Shown here: piece by piece, positions 1 to 10,685 of the stretch
How the letters are laid out: the number at the start of each line of letters is the position of its first letter
How positions within the stretch are numbered: the first letter of the stretch is position 1
From: Rhodococcus globerulus NBRC 14531
GTDB lineage: Bacteria; Actinomycetota; Actinomycetes; Mycobacteriales; Mycobacteriaceae
Length of the DNA: 64,000 nucleotides
Direction: 5' to 3'
NCBI RefSeq assembly: GCF_001894805.1
Contig: NZ_BCWX01000001.1
Span: 310,001 to 374,000 of the forward strand
The notes under the pieces: generated by a model
Databases searched by the model: none
What the model was told of the DNA's origin: nothing
The model's input: the letters and a program-made list of their open reading frames with translations, nothing else
Program-made: the position numbers and the translations under genes

Positions 1-917
1 AGCGAGCAGTTCAAGCGGCGCCATTGATCGACAAATGTGTCGCGACGTTACCCGAAGCGGTCAAGCAGAAGATCCCTGCTGATCCGGAAACGCTCGTCAA
101 GATCAACTCTGCAATCCAGATCGGAGGTGGTGTGTTGCTGGCCAGCGGCAAAGCGCCCCGCCTTGCGTCGATAGCCCTCGCTGGCAGCCTGGTGCCCACC
201 ACGCTCGTCGGTCACGATTTTTGGAACGAGACCGATCCCTCGGTGCGCGCGATGCAGCGTACGCAGTTTCTCAAGAATGTCAGCTTGCTCGGTGGGTTGA
301 TAATCGCATCCGTCGACACCGAAGGAAAACCATCTCTGGGGTGGCGCGGACGTCGCGCCGCAAAAAAGGCGCGGGCATCGGTTGTCGCTGCACTTCCGCT
401 GGTCGCGGCACAGGGCCATAACGCTGGTTCTCGTGTCGAACATGCAATGGCTGTGGCATCGGAGCGTGGCTCCGAACTCGGCGACACTGCCAAAGCGCAC
501 GGTACGGATTGGATCGAACTGGCCAAGGAACGGGGTTCGGGGATTGCGGAGATCGCAAGCAAACGAGCAGCGGAACTTGGCGAAGCTACAAAGGAGCGCG
601 GGCCGGATCTCTTGGAGGTCGCGCAGAAGCGTGGCTCCGAACTGGCAGAGATGGCGCGCGAGCGAGGCTCCGAACTCGCCGATTCGGCTTTGGAGCGTGG
701 CACCGAACTCGCCGAGACCGCGCGCGAGCGTCGGGCTGAACTGGCAGACTTGACGCGCAAACACAGTGCCGAGATCGCAGAACTTGCACGCGCGAAGAGC
801 AACGACTGGGCCGAGGTTGTATCCGAACAAACCGAGGTGCAGGGAAAGCGCGCACGTAAACGTGCGGAGGCAGCACTCGAAAAGGTTCGCGCCAAGAAGG
901 ACGAATTGGCACACTGA
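1..917 (+). CDS. DoxX-like membrane protein with 11-residue repeat tail (5' partial)
   Basis: The reading frame is open to the left edge, so the true start lies outside the window; the TTG at 24 is only the first start-like codon inside it. Residues 1-125 (counted from that TTG) resemble the DoxX family, with hydrophobic segments and the conserved stretches VGHDFWNE and QRTQFLKNVSLLGG. From about residue 147 to 267 the protein is eleven consecutive 11-residue repeats of the type ERGSELAEMAR, then a basic tail rich in Lys, Arg and Glu. Eleven-residue periodicity suits an amphipathic, possibly membrane-lying helix. DoxX proteins are small membrane proteins linked to redox homeostasis; the tail is not part of the usual family. 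The function of the tail is unknown. Confidence 0.8.
   Translation, partial: RAVQAAPLIDKCVATLPEAVKQKIPADPETLVKINSAIQIGGGVLLASGKAPRLASIALAGSLVPTTLVGHDFWNETDPSVRAMQRTQFLKNVSLLGGLIIASVDTEGKPSLGWRGRRAAKKARASVVAALPLVAAQGHNAGSRVEHAMAVASERGSELGDTAKAHGTDWIELAKERGSGIAEIASKRAAELGEATKERGPDLLEVAQKRGSELAEMARERGSELADSALERGTELAETARERRAELADLTRKHSAEIAELARAKSNDWAEVVSEQTEVQGKRARKRAEAALEKVRAKKDELAH
462..824 (+). repeat. Eleven tandem 33-bp coding repeats
   Basis: Eleven in-frame 33-bp units each encode an 11-residue block, with consensus roughly [E/K]RGSELAE-A[R/K]. The copies have diverged at the DNA level, but the block length never changes, which suggests selection on the helical period rather than recent slippage. 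Confidence 0.85.
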
Positions 918-981: not shown

Positions 982-2361
982 TCAGTGTGCGAATGCCTTC
1001 CTCGCAGGTCGGTCGGCTGCGCTGTTCCTGAGTTGCTGGACGACTTCGTTGATCGCGGTTACCAGTTTGTATGCGAGGTCTTGACTGAAGCCTTCGCGTA
1101 ACACGATGCGCAGGACGGCGACATCTTCGGCATCTGCGGGCATCGTGTACGCGGGAACTTGGAAGCCGCGTGCTCGCAGTTCGTGGGAGATGTCGAAGAC
1201 GGTGAAGCCTGGGTCGTCGACGACTTCGAAGGACAAGACCGGGATGGCGGTGCCATCGGTGATGATGTGCATGTTGTCTATTTTCGAGATCGCCGCGGAC
1301 AGCATCAGTGCGGTATCGCGTAGAGATTCCATGATCTGGGTGTAACCAGCTACTCCGAGGCGGATGAAGTTGTAATACTGCCCGACGACCTGATTACCTG
1401 ATCGGGAGAAGTTCAGGGTGAAGGTCGGCATGTCTCCGCCGAGGTAGTTGACGCGGAACACCAGATCTTCGGGTAGATACTCCTTCGAGCGCCAGACCAC
1501 GAACCCGATGCCCGGATAGGTCATGCCGTACTTGTGGCCGCTGACGTTGATCGATACAACACGTGGAATCTTGAAGTCCCACTTCAGTTCCGGGTGCAGG
1601 AACGGGACCACGAAGCCACCACTTGCCGCGTCGACATGCAGCGGTACATCTGGGCCGCCGTTGGCCGCGATGTCGTCGAGTGCTGCGGCGATCTCGGCAA
1701 CGGGTTCGAGTTCGCCGGTAAACGTGGTGCCGAGAATCGCGACCACACCGATGGTGTTCTCGTCGACAGCGTCGCGGACCTGTTCGGGGGTGATCACATA
1801 GCGGCCCTTGGCCATGGGAAGGTATTTGGGTTCGACGTCGAAGTAGCGGCAAAATTTTTCCCACACGACCTGGACGTTGCTACCAAGGATGAGATTCGGT
1901 TTCGTAGCGTCTTTGCCTTCCTGCTCGCGGCGTTGGCGCCACCGCCACTTGAGGGCGAGTCCACCGAGCATGACGGCCTCGGAGGAGCCGACCGTGGAGA
2001 CCCCGGTCGCGGAGGCAGGGTCGGATGTCAGTCCTTCTGCGTGGAAGAGGTCGGCAACCATGTTGACGCAACGAGTTTCGATTTCCGCCGTTGCTGGATA
2101 CTCGTCCTTGTCGATCATGTTCTTGTCGAACGTTTCGGCCATCAGACGATCAGCCTGAGGGTCCATCCACGTGGTGACAAAAGTGGCGAGATTCAGTCGT
2201 GAACTACCGTCGAGCATCAACTCGTCGTGGATGAACCGGTATGCCGCTTCGGGATCGGATTCGGCTTTGGGTAGTCGTAGCGCGGGAATCGGATCCGTGC
2301 CGAGCCTGCCGGTGTACGCAGGTGCGAGGGTTTCGGTGGGAGCTGCAAAAATATCTGACAT
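982..2361 (-). CDS. gadB: Glutamate decarboxylase
   Basis: PLP-dependent enzyme converting L-glutamate to GABA and CO2 while consuming a proton, usually cytosolic and linked to acid resistance or GABA metabolism. The 459 residues match the usual length of about 460-466. The PLP lysine is K277 in SGHKYG, and D244 in HVDAASGG is the conserved residue near the PLP ring. A GGAGGA ribosome-binding site lies just upstream of the ATG at 2361. It is the last of four co-directional genes, 84 bp after the YhgE-like gene, and ends at the hairpin 928-965. No glutamate/GABA antiporter gene is adjacent, unlike in enterobacterial acid-resistance systems. Confidence 0.95.
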   Translation of the reverse strand: MSDIFAAPTETLAPAYTGRLGTDPIPALRLPKAESDPEAAYRFIHDELMLDGSSRLNLATFVTTWMDPQADRLMAETFDKNMIDKDEYPATAEIETRCVNMVADLFHAEGLTSDPASATGVSTVGSSEAVMLGGLALKWRWRQRREQEGKDATKPNLILGSNVQVVWEKFCRYFDVEPKYLPMAKGRYVITPEQVRDAVDENTIGVVAILGTTFTGELEPVAEIAAALDDIAANGGPDVPLHVDAASGGFVVPFLHPELKWDFKIPRVVSINVSGHKYGMTYPGIGFVVWRSKEYLPEDLVFRVNYLGGDMPTFTLNFSRSGNQVVGQYYNFIRLGVAGYTQIMESLRDTALMLSAAISKIDNMHIITDGTAIPVLSFEVVDDPGFTVFDISHELRARGFQVPAYTMPADAEDVAVLRIVLREGFSQDLAYKLVTAINEVVQQLRNSAADRPARKAFAH

Positions 2362-2445: not shown

Positions 2446-4431
2446 CTACACTTCGATCGACGGGTACAGACGTTCCATCGTGTAGCGGCGATTGCGGCGT
2501 ACCGAGAGTGCGCTGATGCTCATCGATACGAGCAGAATGCCGGAAAGGACGGCGATTGCTGTCCAGAGTCGCGAATCGACGTGTTCGGCGGTGATGAGTT
2601 GCCGGAGTCCGTTGACGGTATACGTCATCGGGTCGAACGGATGGATGTATTGAAATGGCGTAGCTGTCGTCGGTACCGGATAGATTCCGCCGGCGGAGAC
2701 CAACTGCAGCATCAGGAAGGCCAAGGTCACCACTCGGCCGACTGCAACTCCGAAGAGAGCATTGAACATCTGAATCATCGCCAGATAGGTCGCCGAGACC
2801 AGCATCAGGAACAGGATCGTTCCTGGAACGTGTTTGACGTCCAGGCCCACTCCGATGTGTACCACTGCGTACATGGTGATCACTTGGAGGATGCCGATGA
2901 GCAGTGCCGGCCAGTACGAGGCCAGAACTGTTCGATACAGGCCAAGATTGCTGATGGTTGCGCGGGATTGCAACGGGGTCAACAACATCCAGGTGATAAT
3001 GCAGCCGACGAACAAGGCCAACGACAGGAAGAACGGTGCGAATCCCGTACCGAACGTTGGCGCCTCGTTCGTGTAGTCCTGCTTGAGTGCGACTGGAGTG
3101 GACAGGGTGTCCGCGGTAGCTGTGCGTTGATCGTCAGTCCAAATCGGTACCTGCCCGGCGCCCTTTGCGAGTGCGTCGGCCAGTTCATCCGAGCCCGATT
3201 GCAGTTCCACCATTCCCGAAGCGAGCTGATCGGCTCCGCTCGCGAGCGCGATACTGCCATCGGTCAATTGGATCAGCCCGGAGTTCAAAGTCGTGGCTCC
3301 GGAACTGAGCTGGTCGGCGCCGTCGCGTAGTTGCCGCACGTCTGAAGCCAGTCCACCGTTTTGCAGGAGTGCGAGTCCGGATTGCAGGGGACTGGTTGGA
3401 TCCGTCAACTGGTATTCGAGTGCGCGTGCGTCTTCGCTGAGGCGACTGATTTCCGCTTGTAGTGCGGCAGTGTCACTTTGGGGTTGTGCTGCAGCGAGTG
3501 GGGTGAGTGCTGCAACGGCCTGTTGTGCGAGAGGATCTGTGCTGGGCCCGAGAAGGTCGAGCACCCGCTGGACCTCTGGTGAGACGGTGACTTGTGGCGG
3601 CTGGGGGAGGCGATCGCCGAGAGCAGTGAGGGACTGCCTCAGCTGTGCCGCTTGGGCTCCGAGGTCGGGCACGTTGCTGGAGTCGAGGGCGTTGAGCAAT
3701 GGATCCGCGACACCGTCGATCGCCGTGGCAAGCTGGCCGGCGCCTGCTGCGAGCTGCGCAGACCCATCGCGTGCGGTGACCATGTTCGTGGAGAGCTCAT
3801 CGGCACCGGAGCTGAGTTGATCCGCTCCGGCCTTGGCTGTGTCGATACCGTTCGCGAGGGTCTTTGCTCCGTCGGCAGCCTGGCCCAGGCCCGAACCGGC
3901 GGTCTGTAGACCTGTCAGGACCTGGCCGACGCCTTGGGCGCCGATGGTCGAGTTGACCTGGTTGATGACCTGTTCGGAGGCGTCTTGACCGATGATGGTG
4001 GCCAGATAATTATTGGCGTCGTTGAAGGTGAAGGTGAGATCGGCCTTCTCGGGGTTGTCACCGTTGGGTGATTCGACAGCGTCGCTGAAGTTCTCGGGCA
4101 AGGTGATCGTGAAATAGTACTTGCCACTGGAGAGCCCGGCTTGGGCTTCTTGATCCGAGACCTCCGCCAAATCAAGTTGTCCGGAGGCGATGAGCGATTT
4201 GACGACTTGATCGCCGGCGTCGACTTGTTGTCCTGTCGATGTTCGTCCCGAGTCGTTGTTGACAATCGCCGCGGGGATTTTGTTCACCTCGCCGAAGGGG
4301 TTCCAGAAGGCCCACAAGTACATCGCGCCGTACAGCAGCGGCAACAAGATGATGGTGACGATCGCGATTCGTGGCAGGGTGCCGCGGGAATAGCGTTTGA
4401 CATCGCTGCCCAGAGATATACCTGCGAGCAT
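2446..4431 (-). CDS. YhgE/Pip family membrane protein (ABC-2-like permease)
   Basis: 661-residue protein with the YhgE/Pip layout. One N-terminal membrane segment (about residues 22-42) is followed by the conserved NKIPAAIVNNDSG stretch. Next comes a long extracytoplasmic region with repeats such as QLSSGADEL typical of this family's helical stalk, and then about five membrane segments from roughly residue 470. YhgE/Pip proteins resemble ABC-2 permeases and include a phage-infection protein and type VII secretion-associated proteins. The start lies 3 bp after the stop of the ATPase-like gene, so the two are almost certainly translated from one message. The substrate is unknown. Confidence 0.85.
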   Translation of the reverse strand: MLAGISLGSDVKRYSRGTLPRIAIVTIILLPLLYGAMYLWAFWNPFGEVNKIPAAIVNNDSGRTSTGQQVDAGDQVVKSLIASGQLDLAEVSDQEAQAGLSSGKYYFTITLPENFSDAVESPNGDNPEKADLTFTFNDANNYLATIIGQDASEQVINQVNSTIGAQGVGQVLTGLQTAGSGLGQAADGAKTLANGIDTAKAGADQLSSGADELSTNMVTARDGSAQLAAGAGQLATAIDGVADPLLNALDSSNVPDLGAQAAQLRQSLTALGDRLPQPPQVTVSPEVQRVLDLLGPSTDPLAQQAVAALTPLAAAQPQSDTAALQAEISRLSEDARALEYQLTDPTSPLQSGLALLQNGGLASDVRQLRDGADQLSSGATTLNSGLIQLTDGSIALASGADQLASGMVELQSGSDELADALAKGAGQVPIWTDDQRTATADTLSTPVALKQDYTNEAPTFGTGFAPFFLSLALFVGCIITWMLLTPLQSRATISNLGLYRTVLASYWPALLIGILQVITMYAVVHIGVGLDVKHVPGTILFLMLVSATYLAMIQMFNALFGVAVGRVVTLAFLMLQLVSAGGIYPVPTTATPFQYIHPFDPMTYTVNGLRQLITAEHVDSRLWTAIAVLSGILLVSMSISALSVRRNRRYTMERLYPSIEV

Positions 4432-4434
4432 CAG

Positions 4435-5256
4435 TCACCTTCCTTCGGTCATAACGCCGATATCGCCGGCTCCGAGCAATCCGTGCATGTTCACCACGGC
4501 GTGGACGCCGGTATCAGGCGGGAGTGCGTTGACATCTGCAGTGATCACCGACTGGTGCTCGCCGAGTGCAACAAGCCGTTGCAGCAAGGCGGCTCTCTCG
4601 AGGTCGTCGGCGATTTTGTCGATGCGCCCGACAACGAGCAATGGCGGGCGTTTGGTGTTCGCGACGGCGATCCGCAACAACAATTGTTGGATTTCGGGAA
4701 GGTCGTCGACGAAGGCATTGAGCGGGGGTAATTCGATGTCACCGAACGTGTCCGCGCACATGTTCGCGACTTCTACCTCGCTCGCGCGGGGAACGATTTT
4801 GTACCACGGAGAATTCCATCGCAGTTGTTCGGTCACCATGTCACGTACGGTCACCGACGGTCGGACGTCGTCGAGTTCGTTCAGACATGCGATCGCCGAG
4901 ATGGCCAAGATTCTTGTCGGATTGTCGTAGCCGAGTACGGCTAATGTCCCCGCGGACAATCGCATTCGTCCGCACAGTGTCATCAGCAAGGCGGTTCGCG
5001 CGGCGCCGGCCTGCGCAGCCAGCACCGTCACACCGCCTGCGTCGATATCCATATCGAGTGGACCGAACACGTGGCCCCACGGTCCGTGTAATTCGATGCC
5101 CCGAGCGGAGACCAATGTCCCCGCCGCTGCTTCGGCGGGTAATTGCCAACTCTCTGAACTGGTTTCAACCAATTTGAGGCCTCCCGACCTTGGTGCGGCA
5201 CGGCGGCGCGGAGCTACGCGAGAGGTCCCCGGTGGGTTCGTCTCGTGGAGGATCAC
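4435..5256 (-). CDS. ABC ATPase-like protein with degenerate nucleotide-binding motifs
   Basis: 273 residues with the fold pattern of an ABC ATPase, but the catalytic motifs are lost. The Walker A position reads AQAGAARTALL, with Gly-to-Ala changes and Arg in place of Lys. The Walker B position reads LLVVGRID, lacking Asp and Glu. The signature region LPEIQQLLLRIAVA keeps only the QQ and hydrophobic pattern. An internal GTLAVLGYDNP matches the strand after Walker A in real ABC proteins. It sits between the amidohydrolase (16 bp upstream) and YhgE (3 bp downstream). I infer a non-hydrolysing partner of the YhgE protein. The frame is otherwise clean, so this looks like a maintained protein and not a recent pseudogene. 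Confidence 0.75.
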   Translation of the reverse strand: MILHETNPPGTSRVAPRRRAAPRSGGLKLVETSSESWQLPAEAAAGTLVSARGIELHGPWGHVFGPLDMDIDAGGVTVLAAQAGAARTALLMTLCGRMRLSAGTLAVLGYDNPTRILAISAIACLNELDDVRPSVTVRDMVTEQLRWNSPWYKIVPRASEVEVANMCADTFGDIELPPLNAFVDDLPEIQQLLLRIAVANTKRPPLLVVGRIDKIADDLERAALLQRLVALGEHQSVITADVNALPPDTGVHAVVNMHGLLGAGDIGVMTEGR

Positions 5257-5272
5257 GCATCGACGAGAGATG

Positions 5273-6553
5273 TCACAAAGTGTCTTTCACTACCTGGCCG
5301 TTCTTGACGATGACCCTTAGGCTCTTGCCTGGCTCTGCGAGCAGGTTGAGGTCCTCGAGTGGATTTCCGTCGACGAGTAGGACATCTGCCCAGGCGCCCT
5401 CGGTGATTACTCCGAGTGGTGCCTGCCTGTAGGGATCCCGCTCGCCGGCGAGCCGGAAGAGTTCGGCATTTCCGGAGGTGAGCATCCGAAGGGCGTCGAC
5501 ATTGCTGTAATGGTCGCCGAGTCGGGCGGCCATCTCGCTCTGCCGGGGCGCGATCTGCGGTTCGAGCAAAAGATCTGTGCCCCAGGCTGTTTTGACGCCG
5601 TGTTTGCGGGCCCAGCTGTATACGTCATCGGTACCGGTGCAGATCTCGCGGTCCTTTTCTGCACGGCTAGGGTCGGGGTAGTGATGATCGCCCAAGGCGA
5701 AGGGCTGCATCGAAAGCCAAATGTCCTTCTCGGCCATCAGCGCGATCGTCGCCTCGTCGGCGAGATGGCCGTGTTCGATGGACTTCACGCCGGCATCGAT
5801 CGCGCGGCGAATGCCGGTGACGTTGTAGACATGGGTAGCGACGTAGGTTCCGTAGTCGGTGGCGGCATTCACCGCTGCACGAAGTTCGGGATCGGTGAAC
5901 TGGACTGTGTAGAGAGGGTCGTACATCGACGCTGCGCCGCCGCCGACCATCATCTTGATTTGTGAGGCACCCTTTTTGAGTTGTTCGCGAACTGCGGCCA
6001 ATACTCGCTCCGGACCGTCTGCGACGCGCATGAAGCCGATTTCTTCGGCCCGACTTTGCTTTCCGCCCAAAGCGGTGGGGCATTCGTAGACGAATCCGAA
6101 GTCGCCGTGCCCGCTGGTCTGCGAAATAGCGGCCTGGGAGGGATAGATTCGAGGTCCCTCGAACAGTCCCCGGTCGATGACCGATTTGATGCTACTGGTG
6201 TCGCCGGCCATGTCCCGGACCGTGGTGAACCCGCGGTGGAGCATGTTCTTTGCCTCGGCGAGGCCATTGAGCGCGATATGCGCTTCGCTGCCCATCACCA
6301 TATCCATGTATGAATTGGCGTTGCCGACCAGATGCACGTGAGCGTCGCTCATACCCGGCATCAAGACTCGATTTCCACCGTCGATGACGGTGGTCTCTCG
6401 GCTCGGGTCGTCTCCGATCGGGGATTGCGAGACTCCCGCAATCGTCTCTCCGTCAATCAGCACGTCACCCGAAACTACTGTCGCAGCGACGCCGTCGAAG
6501 ATACGAACATTGCGGAACAGTAAACGATGTCCAGCTTTTGAAGGGGCTGTCAT
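5273..6553 (-). CDS. Amidohydrolase family protein (imidazolonepropionase-like)
   Basis: About 426 residues of the metal-dependent amidohydrolase superfamily (TIM barrel with flanking beta sandwich). Visible metal and active-site motifs are DAHVHL after strand 1, ATHVYN and IEHGHLAD for later His ligands, and TAWGTDLL carrying the late catalytic Asp. The family includes prolidase-like peptidases, imidazolonepropionases and various amidases, so the substrate cannot be named. I prefer the ATG at 6553; a GTG three codons earlier (6562) is also possible, and neither has a good ribosome-binding site. It is the first gene of the four-gene minus-strand run ending with gadB. Confidence 0.85.
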   Translation of the reverse strand: MTAPSKAGHRLLFRNVRIFDGVAATVVSGDVLIDGETIAGVSQSPIGDDPSRETTVIDGGNRVLMPGMSDAHVHLVGNANSYMDMVMGSEAHIALNGLAEAKNMLHRGFTTVRDMAGDTSSIKSVIDRGLFEGPRIYPSQAAISQTSGHGDFGFVYECPTALGGKQSRAEEIGFMRVADGPERVLAAVREQLKKGASQIKMMVGGGAASMYDPLYTVQFTDPELRAAVNAATDYGTYVATHVYNVTGIRRAIDAGVKSIEHGHLADEATIALMAEKDIWLSMQPFALGDHHYPDPSRAEKDREICTGTDDVYSWARKHGVKTAWGTDLLLEPQIAPRQSEMAARLGDHYSNVDALRMLTSGNAELFRLAGERDPYRQAPLGVITEGAWADVLLVDGNPLEDLNLLAEPGKSLRVIVKNGQVVKDTL

Positions 6554-6731
6554 AACTCGCACGCTAACAGTGAAATTCGGACATTGAGGGCAAATAACGA
6601 AAAATCACCCTATTGATTCGGTAACGATCAGACCTGGCGAACCGATCCGGAGATGCCGTCGTAGACGGGGGGTATGCGCAAAATCTCGGATCCTCGAAAT
6701 ATTATGTCGGAGTTGAACTACACTGCGGCGC

Positions 6732-7373
6732 ATGCTGATTCACCCGACATTACGGATGCAGTCCTGGGGCTTCGTGATCGGATCGACTCTCTTCGCGCTC
6801 GGTTCGGCACCCTTCCTTTCGTCGCTCTTCGGCGCCGCCCTCGCGAACGTTTTCTTTTTCGCCGGGTCCTGGTTTTTCACCGGCGCCGCGTTTATCCAGT
6901 TGATACTCAGTGGATCGGCCACTACTTCCGACTCCGGTAAGCCTGCAATCCGTGCCGTGTGGTTATCGGCAGCAGTGCAGCTTCTCGGCACGATACTGTT
7001 CAACATCAGTACCGGTTCAGCTCTGCACGACCTCAACGTGCAAGGAGAAATGCACCTCGTCTGGAATCCCAACGCGGAGGGCTCCATCGCATTCCTCGTT
7101 TCGAGCGGTCTTGCTGTGCTTATCCTATGGCGCGCGAAGACGTACTGGGCGCCGCGATCGACGGAATGGCAAAGCGTCTGGCTCAACACATTCGGATCCA
7201 TTGCTTTCGGCGTATCTGCCGTCGGATCGTTCATACTCCGTGACGGAAATACACTTGATCCCAATATGGCCAATATCGGCACCTTCGTCGGTGCGTTGTT
7301 CTTCCTGTTCGCCTCCGCGGTATTCCTGGGAAAAAGCACCCGGCCAGTGTCGGCAATGGCAGAAGCGGTCTGA
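6732..7373 (+). CDS. Hypothetical multi-pass membrane protein (YrhK-like)
   Basis: 213 residues with about five to six hydrophobic segments, including AALANVFFFAGSWFFTGAAF and VGALFFLFASAVFL. The alternation of short loops and Ser/Gly/Phe-rich helices recalls proteins with YrhK-like domains, but this is a weak recognition. It is transcribed divergently from the amidohydrolase gene across a 178-bp gap and faces the Ntn-hydrolase gene. No Shine-Dalgarno sequence is obvious before the ATG. Function unknown. Confidence 0.7.
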   Translation: MLIHPTLRMQSWGFVIGSTLFALGSAPFLSSLFGAALANVFFFAGSWFFTGAAFIQLILSGSATTSDSGKPAIRAVWLSAAVQLLGTILFNISTGSALHDLNVQGEMHLVWNPNAEGSIAFLVSSGLAVLILWRAKTYWAPRSTEWQSVWLNTFGSIAFGVSAVGSFILRDGNTLDPNMANIGTFVGALFFLFASAVFLGKSTRPVSAMAEAV

Positions 7374-7538: not shown

Positions 7539-8528
7539 TCAGGACGGTAGGGCGAGGAATTTCAAAGGTGCGGTCTCATCGAAGCGGCCGGTGACATTTC
7601 CGGCCAGCCCACCCTCGAGAGCGGTGTCCCCGATCAGGTCGAGCTTGCCGGCGGGAGCGCCCTCCTCGAAGTTCAATTCACTCAATTCGACCCAGACGAC
7701 ATTGGGTCGAGTTGTCGACTCGAAGACGTACCGCTTGTTGGTGAGGTCGGAGACGGTCTGCCAAATCGTCTGCGACGCGTTCGGCTTGTCGGGATCAGGG
7801 ATGCGGAACGGTTGCGCGGTGTTACGGATGACGCTGAACATGCCGGCGATTGCCTCGAGTTGGCTCTTGGGTTCGGGAAGGCGTCCGACGTAATACGCTG
7901 CGCGCGCGAACCTGTCGGAGGCCACTGTGGTTCCGGGAAGTGGCCTGTCTCCACCGAACCCTTGGACCTGCTTCAATAGTTCGATCTGCTTGTCGTAGGT
8001 GGGGGAGTTGGTCATCACGCGGTAGTCACGGCTGTGCCACACGTTGGGCTTTCCGTCGATGTACTCGATGACTACGGAGTCGCCGTTCCCATCGACCAAC
8101 GCGAGGTGCACCGCGGGTACTTCACCGGTGCTCGGGTCTCCCAGCGGGACGACTTGGACACTGGTGTCCTCGATCCAGGCCACTGCTTCGTCGACGGTTG
8201 CGAAGTTGTCGAGGAAGTACTGCATCCAGACCGCCATGCTCAAGGCGGGTTTGCTTTTGTCGTGCTCGCCGTACGTTGATTCGGAGAGCCAGAGGATATG
8301 CCCGGCGAGGCCAACTTCGTTCATCCCGTCGACGGTCATCATGTCGTACGCGCCTGCCACGACGCTGCCGTATCGGGCTACCCAGGACAGTTGGCCGCCG
8401 ACGCCGTCGTCTCGTTTGATCCCCCGAGGCATAACCCACAGGTTCGTGGCGGTATCCCGGTGGTAGTCCATGTTTCGACCGACGAGAACCGCTCCGCCGG
8501 GTTCATTCCAGATGACGCGAGTGCACAT
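7539..8528 (-). CDS. Choloylglycine hydrolase / penicillin V acylase family Ntn-hydrolase, copy 1
   Basis: 329 residues. Cys2 (start MCTRVIW) would become the N-terminal nucleophile after removal of the initiator Met, as in linear amide C-N hydrolases. RNMDYHRD carries the conserved Asp, and VMTNSPTYDKQ carries the Asn region of the oxyanion hole. The family cleaves bile-salt amides, penicillin V or N-acyl-homoserine lactones; the sequence does not say which. No signal peptide is possible because the Cys must be N-terminal, so the enzyme is cytoplasmic. A gene roughly 75-80% identical by eye lies at 9696-10685 in the opposite orientation. Confidence 0.88.
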   Translation of the reverse strand: MCTRVIWNEPGGAVLVGRNMDYHRDTATNLWVMPRGIKRDDGVGGQLSWVARYGSVVAGAYDMMTVDGMNEVGLAGHILWLSESTYGEHDKSKPALSMAVWMQYFLDNFATVDEAVAWIEDTSVQVVPLGDPSTGEVPAVHLALVDGNGDSVVIEYIDGKPNVWHSRDYRVMTNSPTYDKQIELLKQVQGFGGDRPLPGTTVASDRFARAAYYVGRLPEPKSQLEAIAGMFSVIRNTAQPFRIPDPDKPNASQTIWQTVSDLTNKRYVFESTTRPNVVWVELSELNFEEGAPAGKLDLIGDTALEGGLAGNVTGRFDETAPLKFLALPS

Positions 8529-9695: not shown

Positions 9696-10685
9696 ATGTG
9701 TACCAGAGTAATTTGGCCTGATGCCGCGGGGTCTGTTCTCGTCGGCCGCAACATGGACTATCACCGCGACACCGGGACAAATCTGTGGTTGCTTCCCCAG
9801 GGGGTTGAACGCAACGATGGCGTCGGCGGTTCCCTCAGTTGGACAGCCGAATACGGCAGCGTCGTGGCTGGCGCATTCGACATGATGTCGGTGGACGGCA
9901 TGAACGAGGCTGGACTGGCGGGCCATATCTTGTGGCTCGCGGAATCGGATTACGGTAGTCGTGACACATCGAAGCCAAGTCTGAGCATGGCGATCTGGCT
10001 GCAGTACTTCCTGGACAACTTTGCCACTGTTGCGGATGCCGCCGCCTGGATCGTCGATTCCGACGTCCAGGTTGTACCGCTGGGCGATCCGGCGACTGGC
10101 GAGGTGCCCGCCGTTCACCTTGCGTTGGACGACGCGACCGGCGATTCGGCGATCATCGAGTACCTCGACGGCAAGGCGACCGTCTGGCACGACCGTGACT
10201 ACCGTGTGATGACCAATTCCCCGTCCTTCGACAAGCAAATCGAACTTCTCAAAGAGGTCGACGGGTTCGGTGGCACCAAGCCGCTACCGGGGACCACGCT
10301 TGCGTCCGACCGGTTCGCTCGCGCAGCATATTACGTGGGCCGGCTGCCTGAGCCGAAGAGCGAGGTCGAGGCGGTGGCGGGAATGTTCAGCGTCATCCGC
10401 AATGCTGCGCAACCCTTCAGGATCCCTGATCCCGACAAACCCTATGCCTCGCAGACGATTTGGCAGACCGTCTCCGATTTGACCAACAAGCGGTACGTCT
10501 TCGACTCGACTACGCGACCCAATGTCTTGTGGGTGGACTTCGACAAGCTGGACTTCAGTGTGGGCGCGCAGGCAGGCAAGCTCGACCTGATGGGCGACAC
10601 GTCCCTCGAAGGCGGACTCGCCGGTAACGTCTCTCGCCGCTTCGAGGAAACGCCGCCTATGCAATTTCTGACTCTGCCGGCCTGA
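9696..10685 (+). CDS. Choloylglycine hydrolase / penicillin V acylase family Ntn-hydrolase, copy 2
   Basis: 329 residues, the same length as copy 1 and aligning end to end without gaps. Cys2 nucleophile (MCTRVIW), RNMDYHRD and RVMTNSPSFDKQ are all present. The ribosome-binding site AAGGTGA precedes the ATG. Differences from copy 1 cluster in residues 8-60 and near the C-terminus, while the segments around PLGDP-TGEVPAVHLAL and RFARAAYYVGRLPEPKS are nearly identical. This suggests an old duplication with conserved chemistry and possibly shifted acyl-chain preference. It is followed 91 bp later by a co-directional MFS exporter. Confidence 0.88.
   Translation: MCTRVIWPDAAGSVLVGRNMDYHRDTGTNLWLLPQGVERNDGVGGSLSWTAEYGSVVAGAFDMMSVDGMNEAGLAGHILWLAESDYGSRDTSKPSLSMAIWLQYFLDNFATVADAAAWIVDSDVQVVPLGDPATGEVPAVHLALDDATGDSAIIEYLDGKATVWHDRDYRVMTNSPSFDKQIELLKEVDGFGGTKPLPGTTLASDRFARAAYYVGRLPEPKSEVEAVAGMFSVIRNAAQPFRIPDPDKPYASQTIWQTVSDLTNKRYVFDSTTRPNVLWVDFDKLDFSVGAQAGKLDLMGDTSLEGGLAGNVSRRFEETPPMQFLTLPA

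Follow-up and report, generated by a model that had tools for sequence, protein, structure and literature searches.

A conserved pseudo-ABC ATPase paired with a YhgE/Pip membrane protein in Rhodococcus globerulus and other Actinomycetota

ABC (ATP-binding cassette) transporters are defined by ATP hydrolysis, and a motor subunit that is widely kept but dead would reveal which roles such a subunit has apart from ATP. Here, we describe a candidate for this situation in a 64,000-nucleotide stretch of the soil bacterium Rhodococcus globerulus NBRC 14531 (assembly GCF_001894805.1, contig NZ_BCWX01000001.1, positions 310,001 to 374,000; hereafter the window): an ATPase-like gene encoding a pseudo-ABC nucleotide-binding domain protein (psABC), followed by the gene of a YhgE/Pip membrane protein. 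Among the closest described systems are the ABC-2 (type V) exporters (ABCG, ABCA, ABCH, and KpsMT), which are alike in the fold of the nucleotide domain and in the membrane part, and whose bacterial members are likewise encoded by separate tandem genes; they differ in that psABC lacks the Walker A Lys, the catalytic Glu, the LSGGQ signature, and the H-loop His. Heterodimeric ABC transporters, including ABCG5/G8, have also lost catalytic residues in one site, and the available part of one account gives a Lys-to-Arg replacement in the Walker A of the degenerate ABCG5/G8 site (PMC7756269). In those heterodimers, however, one site stays active, whereas here the sole encoded motor subunit lacks every motif tested. 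A precedent for an ATP-free ABC-type membrane fold, as we propose for YhgE, is SbmA of the SLiPT family, which is driven by the proton gradient without ATP according to the available excerpt (PMC13316013); SbmA differs in being related to another ABC membrane fold (YddA) and in having no pseudo-ATPase subunit. Members of the YhgE/Pip family (the PIP family, TCDB 9.B.74; PMC3924187) are described, in the accessible parts of two sources, either as receptors for phages or as proteins without an assigned function (PMC4999554, PMC3924187). In the accessible open-licence PubMed Central (PMC) literature, we found no account of YhgE with a dead ATPase as its partner, which is not proof of absence; measured against the family descriptions there, the conserved dead partner is a feature of the present pair. 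The psABC-YhgE pair would be a case of a primary transporter that has turned into something else.

Loss of the ATP-site motifs and conservation of the pair

The original prediction, made from the DNA letters, held that the ATPase-like frame is intact while its Walker A lacks Lys and its Walker B lacks Asp and Glu. The frame is indeed open and the quoted motifs are present in it (Table 1), with Gly210 and Arg211 at the places of the Walker B Asp and Glu, and the first Gly of the P-loop is lost as well. Beyond what had been noted earlier, psABC also lacks the signature motif and the H-loop His; the signature position contains FVDDLPEIQQ. To follow these losses among orthologues, we used a diverse alignment (A1) of 57 rows, comprising the window and 56 of 72 paired sequences scoring at least 85 bits, and 80 named loci, which are the top 80 of 88 recovered by two peptide patterns. 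Several genomes are represented in both sets, and the 137 rows together leave out 17 weakly matching partners and locus L248, both considered below. Within the aligned stretches, none of the 137 rows has the catalytic Glu, an SGG signature, or the H-loop His. The Walker A Lys position holds Arg in 80 of the 80 named loci and, in the diverse rows, Arg in 48, Gln in 4, Lys in 3, and Ala in 2; the Walker B Asp has given way to Gly in 23 of the 57 diverse rows. As a control, G....GK[ST] was found in the matched stretch, in any of six frames, of all 30 best-scoring ABC domains of the same genome, for which at least 150 such domains were listed. The loss is therefore shared by the orthologues: no row with intact motifs, which would have pointed to a local decay in the window, occurs among the 137, and L248, the clearest partner outside the class, has the Lys without the other motifs.

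The predicted structure of psABC (predicted local distance difference test, pLDDT, 87.8) has the fold of an ABC nucleotide-binding domain, with a best Foldseek E of 4.5e-13 and with Z-scores of 18.0 to 20.8 over ~205 residues against ABC ATPases among the 50 best entries. At the level of sequence, Pfam ABC_tran matches psABC below its cut-off (E 0.013, 16.6 bits versus a gathering score of 25), the best NCBIfam match, CcmA, is also below cut-off (E 7.9e-5), and no family cut-off is passed; the relatives in loci L031, L098, L123, and L126 do pass the ABC_tran gathering score. When compared by sequence with solved structures, the psABC profile finds general ABC domains only. Because the predicted fold supports the weak ABC_tran and CcmA matches, we assign psABC an ABC ancestry, and by its model it is an ABC nucleotide-domain fold.

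Its partner passes both models of the YhgE/Pip family (TIGR03061, E 4.7e-55, 185.7 bits, cut-off 96.15; TIGR03062, E 7.1e-68, 228.3 bits, cut-off 102.2) and the heptad-repeat model TIGR03057. Two ABC-2 membrane domain models also match above cut-off (PF12698, E 9.1e-30; PF01061, E 4.4e-7), and the membrane part resembles the membrane domains of ABCH, ABCG, CcmB, and KpsM in fold. Against solved structures, the YhgE profile matches mainly coiled coils (best 60 of 94 matches).

The two genes are found together repeatedly. In the window, the stop codon of the ATPase-like gene lies 3 bp ahead of the YhgE ATG, as had been read from the letters. A psABC match at 1e-13 or better is present in 15 of 61 genomes of relatives and in 10 of 28 genomes of the window's genus (its own included), and among 27 regions fetched, all 22 that have psABC have YhgE directly downstream; the other five, which were fetched for weak matches, have neither. 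We also searched YhgE-first, running TIGR03061 against 196 genomes at the level of the class and 121 at that of the family, and took a sample of 80 Actinomycetes regions (L058-L137), chosen by hand and not at random: 67 of its 84 YhgE open reading frames (ORFs) have a psABC-profile match directly upstream. All 80 named loci have both genes with the psABC relative directly upstream, and in 79 of them the gap, counted up to the closest start codon in frame, measures -1 to 6 bp; their hosts are Rhodococcus, Prescottella, Mycobacterium, Mycolicibacterium, Mycolicibacter, and some metagenome-assembled Actinomycetes. Distances in the psABC and YhgE trees correlate at r 0.932 over 72 pairs (permutation maximum 0.179), and 47 of 69 splits are common to both trees. 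The nine loci of the window clade are monophyletic in both with a support of 1.0, and 32 loci, including both copies of the Rhodococcus genomes, form the same group in each. Judged by these trees and gene arrangements, the pairing is old and co-inherited, and its presence in many Mycolicibacterium and Rhodococcus species makes the idea of a dead motor subunit testable there. Separately, the window's genome carries three further YhgE-type genes (L086, L093, and L094, on contigs C4 and C5) without an adjoining psABC.

Both genes also bear the mark of selection. In Nei-Gojobori comparisons of the window with five orthologues, the ratio of nonsynonymous to synonymous substitution rates (dN/dS) was 0.094-0.137 for psABC, 0.049-0.095 for YhgE, 0.014-0.054 for the neighbouring glutamate decarboxylase (Gad), and 0.043-0.058 for the neighbouring amidohydrolase. 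The codon changes thus indicate that psABC is kept by purifying selection and is not decaying. ABC domains usually contact their membrane partner at the region following the Q-loop. Because a family-specific conserved stretch of psABC, residues 142-152, comes after the former Q-loop, we propose that it forms the surface facing YhgE. T142, E143, Q144, R146, W147, W151, and N243 are fixed in all 80 named rows; among the 57 diverse rows, 55 keep E143 and 37 keep W147 and W151. Two accounts of psABC were considered and rejected: local decay, by the dN/dS of psABC and the conserved pairing with YhgE, and a frameshift artefact, by window-clade matches without internal stops. In a few named loci (e.g. 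L175, L182, and L213), YhgE, Gad, or the amidohydrolase is split over two ORFs.

Decay of the partner in other lineages and its fusion to MMPL pumps

Outside the class, we fetched 15 YhgE regions from 246 searched genomes of other classes of the phylum. Twelve have no ATPase-like partner, and three do: the L248 partner keeps the Lys (GRNGSGKT) and has DD in place of DE, without LSGGQ or the H-loop His, and those of L261 and L262 are decayed. Within the class, the partners of L126, L127, and L137 also keep the Lys and lack LSGGQ, Glu, and His, while several mycobacterial partners have lost the P-loop outright and are still paired with YhgE. Of the 17 weak partners, 14 entered a profile-profile comparison (alignment A5 with ten loci and A4 with four), the other three being L102, L107, and L111; in A5 the partner is hardly recognisable, yet the comparison relates these ten loci to the psABC family (probability 99.6, E 9.3e-24). 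Because L248, L126, L127, and L137 keep the Lys without LSGGQ, Glu, or His, the signature, the Glu, and the H-loop were probably lost first, followed by the change of Lys to Arg, and the Walker B Asp probably went last, in the wider group of the window; this order is read from the alignments without ancestral reconstruction. Seven of the 15 regions from other classes (L254-L260) have two tandem YhgE genes and no ATPase-like partner, as if a YhgE heterodimer had taken the place of the paired system.

In some lineages, the psABC domain is part of a larger protein. In L126, it spans residues 756-913 of a 973-residue protein that begins with an MMPL pump (PF03176, E 1e-87), and L127 is built alike; the joining of an MMPL pump to a pseudo-ABC domain in which the Walker A Lys survives is an unusual architecture in itself. 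L130, L131, L132, and L136 encode MMPL proteins with a more decayed C-terminal copy, and these four copies are jointly tied to the psABC family (probability 99.3, E 8.1e-21). All six inspected fusions directly precede YhgE. When the L126 protein was compared with the 196 genomes, with few candidates scored per genome, 12 of the matches listed reached residue 817 or beyond, each beside a YhgE match (genomes G082, G158, G240, G178, G150, G223, G249, G141, G205, G247, G160, and G187, of three other families, f37, f46, and f51). Six of these 12 loci are the inspected fusions, and it is in those six that the C-terminal part was identified as the psABC domain. Among solved structures, MmpL3 is the nearest to the L126 protein (E 3.1e-48); both Asp-Tyr pairs align between the two, and both occur in all six fusions. 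In MmpL3, the Asp-Tyr pairs carry protons. The fusion is therefore, by its residues, apparently a working proton-driven pump tied to a dead ATP domain. By the logic of gene fusion, a psABC domain fused to MMPL beside YhgE suggests that MMPL and YhgE act together, at least in the fusion lineages, and thereby a link between YhgE/Pip proteins, phage receptors among them, and the mycobacterial MmpL pumps, which are exporters of envelope lipids. The window-type pairs differ in this respect from the MmpL/MMPL (RND) association: no MMPL gene was found beside unfused pairs in L031-L247 (profile from the six fusions, E up to 1e-10), nor beside YhgE in L248-L262. In Saccharopolyspora hirsuta, the available part of one study lists a YhgE gene (F1721_04135) and an MMPL gene (F1721_04140), with close locus tags, among 28 genes raised by cholesterol, at 3.82- and 3.33-fold (PMC9782250).

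A proposed non-hydrolysing scaffold or gate and the competing explanations

We propose a membrane complex of psABC and YhgE with the layout of a type V (ABC-2) exporter. YhgE would provide the membrane domain and, beyond it, a long extracytoplasmic coiled coil; psABC would occupy the position of the nucleotide-binding domain, on the side of the cytoplasm. The motor subunit would have turned into a non-hydrolysing scaffold or gate, retained to stabilise, position, or gate YhgE. Any transport would then be ATP-independent (passive, by exchange, or proton-driven), and in the MMPL fusions the pump part would be the likely engine. We put the probability of this explanation at roughly 0.6. It takes up one half of the original prediction, namely that the pair works without ATP hydrolysis, which is favoured by the loss of the motifs across orthologues; the other half, a borrowed ATPase, is disfavoured because psABC offers neither the P-loop Lys nor the signature motif.

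Several observations weigh against this proposal. G84, R87, and T88 are still among the better-conserved residues of psABC, so nucleotide binding, and even slow hydrolysis, could persist. The second pair of the same genome has dN/dS values of 0.116-0.363 for psABC, higher than in the window, and 0.033-0.231 for YhgE, and for distant pairs dN/dS is rough owing to high dS. The structure model of YhgE is of middling quality (pLDDT 74; predicted template modelling score, pTM, 0.54) and the membrane part has weak fold matches (best E 3.5e-4). In the window's genus, 18 of 28 genomes either lack the pair or carry it unrecognised, 17 of the 67 upstream partners match the psABC profile weakly (18-58 bits), 17 of 106 YhgE ORFs are without a partner, and no MMPL gene adjoins the window's own pair. 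With the partner-less regions of other classes added to these ORFs, YhgE evidently copes without psABC in other settings.

A wider scheme, which we advance tentatively, is that an ABC-2-type lineage in Actinomycetota lost ATP as its fuel and kept the motor subunit as an adaptor. Where fused, MMPL and YhgE would form one machine with the dead ATPase as the coupling joint; elsewhere, as in the window, the joint would serve an ATP-free YhgE complex or dock a separate pump.

Among the competing explanations, a nucleotide sensor is unlikely, though not negligible: psABC would bind ATP or another phosphorylated ligand through its Arg P-loop without hydrolysing it, and would open or close YhgE according to the level of the ligand. 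The replacement of Lys by a single residue, Arg, in a non-random manner and the conservation of the P-loop in the named rows (Gly84 and Arg87 in 80 of 80, Thr88 in 76 of 80) speak for such a sensor. However, position 87 is Q, A, or K in 9 of 57 diverse rows, the Walker B Asp, the holder of magnesium, is gone in many of them, and the window's own P-loop has lost a Gly; moreover, the mycobacterial partners without any P-loop remain paired.

We regard a borrowed motor as improbable, in which psABC would team up with an intact ABC ATPase from another locus, in the manner of heterodimers that have a single degenerate site. In known heterodimers, the working site is completed by an intact signature motif from the degenerate subunit. 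Since psABC has no signature, neither composite site would be complete; a search of its own genome turned up no intact close relative (next match E 2.7e-4), and no intact second nucleotide domain was found beside the pair in the loci read. A borrowed motor would nevertheless find many ABC domains to choose from in this genome, and heterodimers with one degenerate site are common among ABC transporters according to the available parts of two sources (PMC7756269, PMC11466899). It is very improbable that psABC is a non-functional passenger, a remnant persisting through translational coupling to YhgE, as the hardly recognisable partners of some families (the ten rows of A5) might suggest, given the low dN/dS in the window clade, the fixed family-specific residues, and the fusion of the domain to MMPL pumps.

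Gene layout and neighbouring genes

The four genes of the cluster, all with open frames, lie on the minus strand in the order amidohydrolase, psABC, YhgE, and Gad (Table 1), with intergenic gaps of 16, 3, and 84 bp. It had been proposed that Gad and the amidohydrolase share the transcription unit of the pair: the gene arrangement proved to be conserved, and the case for one unit is made from gene order and spacing. A scan of the locus for promoters and terminators gave no excess over shuffled sequences and is uninformative.

Table 1. Positions of the genes and psABC motifs discussed, numbered along the window
Feature	Position	Strand	Remarks
DoxX-like start, then 11-residue repeats	24-917	+	PF07681 E 4.1e-5
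Glutamate decarboxylase (Gad), downstream in cluster	982-2361	-	TIGR01788 E 5.7e-199, above equivalog cut-off
YhgE/Pip membrane protein, 661 aa, psABC partner	2446-4431	-	TIGR03061, TIGR03062, TIGR03057 above cut-off
psABC, 273 aa	4435-5256	-	open frame; predicted ABC fold; purifying selection
H-loop position, residues 236-243	4528-4551	-	SVITADVN; no His
Degenerate Walker B, residues 206-213	4618-4641	-	LLVVGRID; no Asp, no catalytic Glu
Signature position, residues 182-193	4678-4713	-	FVDDLPEIQQLL; no LSGGQ
Family-specific conserved stretch, residues 142-152	4801-4833	-	TEQLRWNSPWY; after former Q-loop
Degenerate Walker A, residues 81-91	4984-5016	-	AQAGAARTALL; Arg87 replaces Lys
Amidohydrolase (M38-like), upstream in cluster	5273-6562	-	PF01979 E 4.3e-30
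Small protein, divergent, travels with Gad-YhgE cluster	6732-7373	+	weak YrhK match, below cut-off
Choloylglycine-hydrolase-like (CBAH) gene	7539-8528	-	
Choloylglycine-hydrolase-like (CBAH) gene	9696-10685	+	

Gad lies downstream of psABC-YhgE in 15 of 89 paired loci (window excluded), which belong to six genera (g1, g9, g10, g110, g120, and g124), and in L037, L067, L068, L070, L071, and L073 it is 48-52% identical to the Gad of the window. Of the 20 closest named loci, 17 contain Gad together with the amidohydrolase, the latter placed as in the window, and this window-like order of the amidohydrolase also occurs in L067 and L070. By its distribution, the link to Gad is thus conserved and not local. 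Such a link is what one would expect if YhgE and psABC exported gamma-aminobutyric acid (GABA) in exchange for glutamate in the Gad-linked clusters, replacing GadC in acid resistance, and exchange of the GadC kind needs no ATP. We nevertheless consider this exchange highly doubtful: no Gad was found within the stretch read at 74 of these 89 loci, among them the second pair of this genome, and at 63 of the 80 named loci, and the long coiled-coil exterior of YhgE suggests a role that spans the envelope. Since the stretch read around most other pairs contains no Gad, the decarboxylase is unlikely to represent the core function of the pair. A small YrhK-like protein accompanies the Gad-YhgE cluster; its gene is divergent in the window and follows Gad elsewhere (L037, L068, L070, and L073).

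Further along the window, the two CBAH genes lie on opposite strands, ~1.2 kb apart, and their products are 77.5% identical across 329 aa. The gene ahead of Gad at the start of the window encodes a DoxX-like beginning followed by a run of 11-residue repeats, with the repeat pattern at residues 180, 191, 202, 213, 224, and 235, which form an amphipathic tail of the apolipoprotein- or phasin-like kind.

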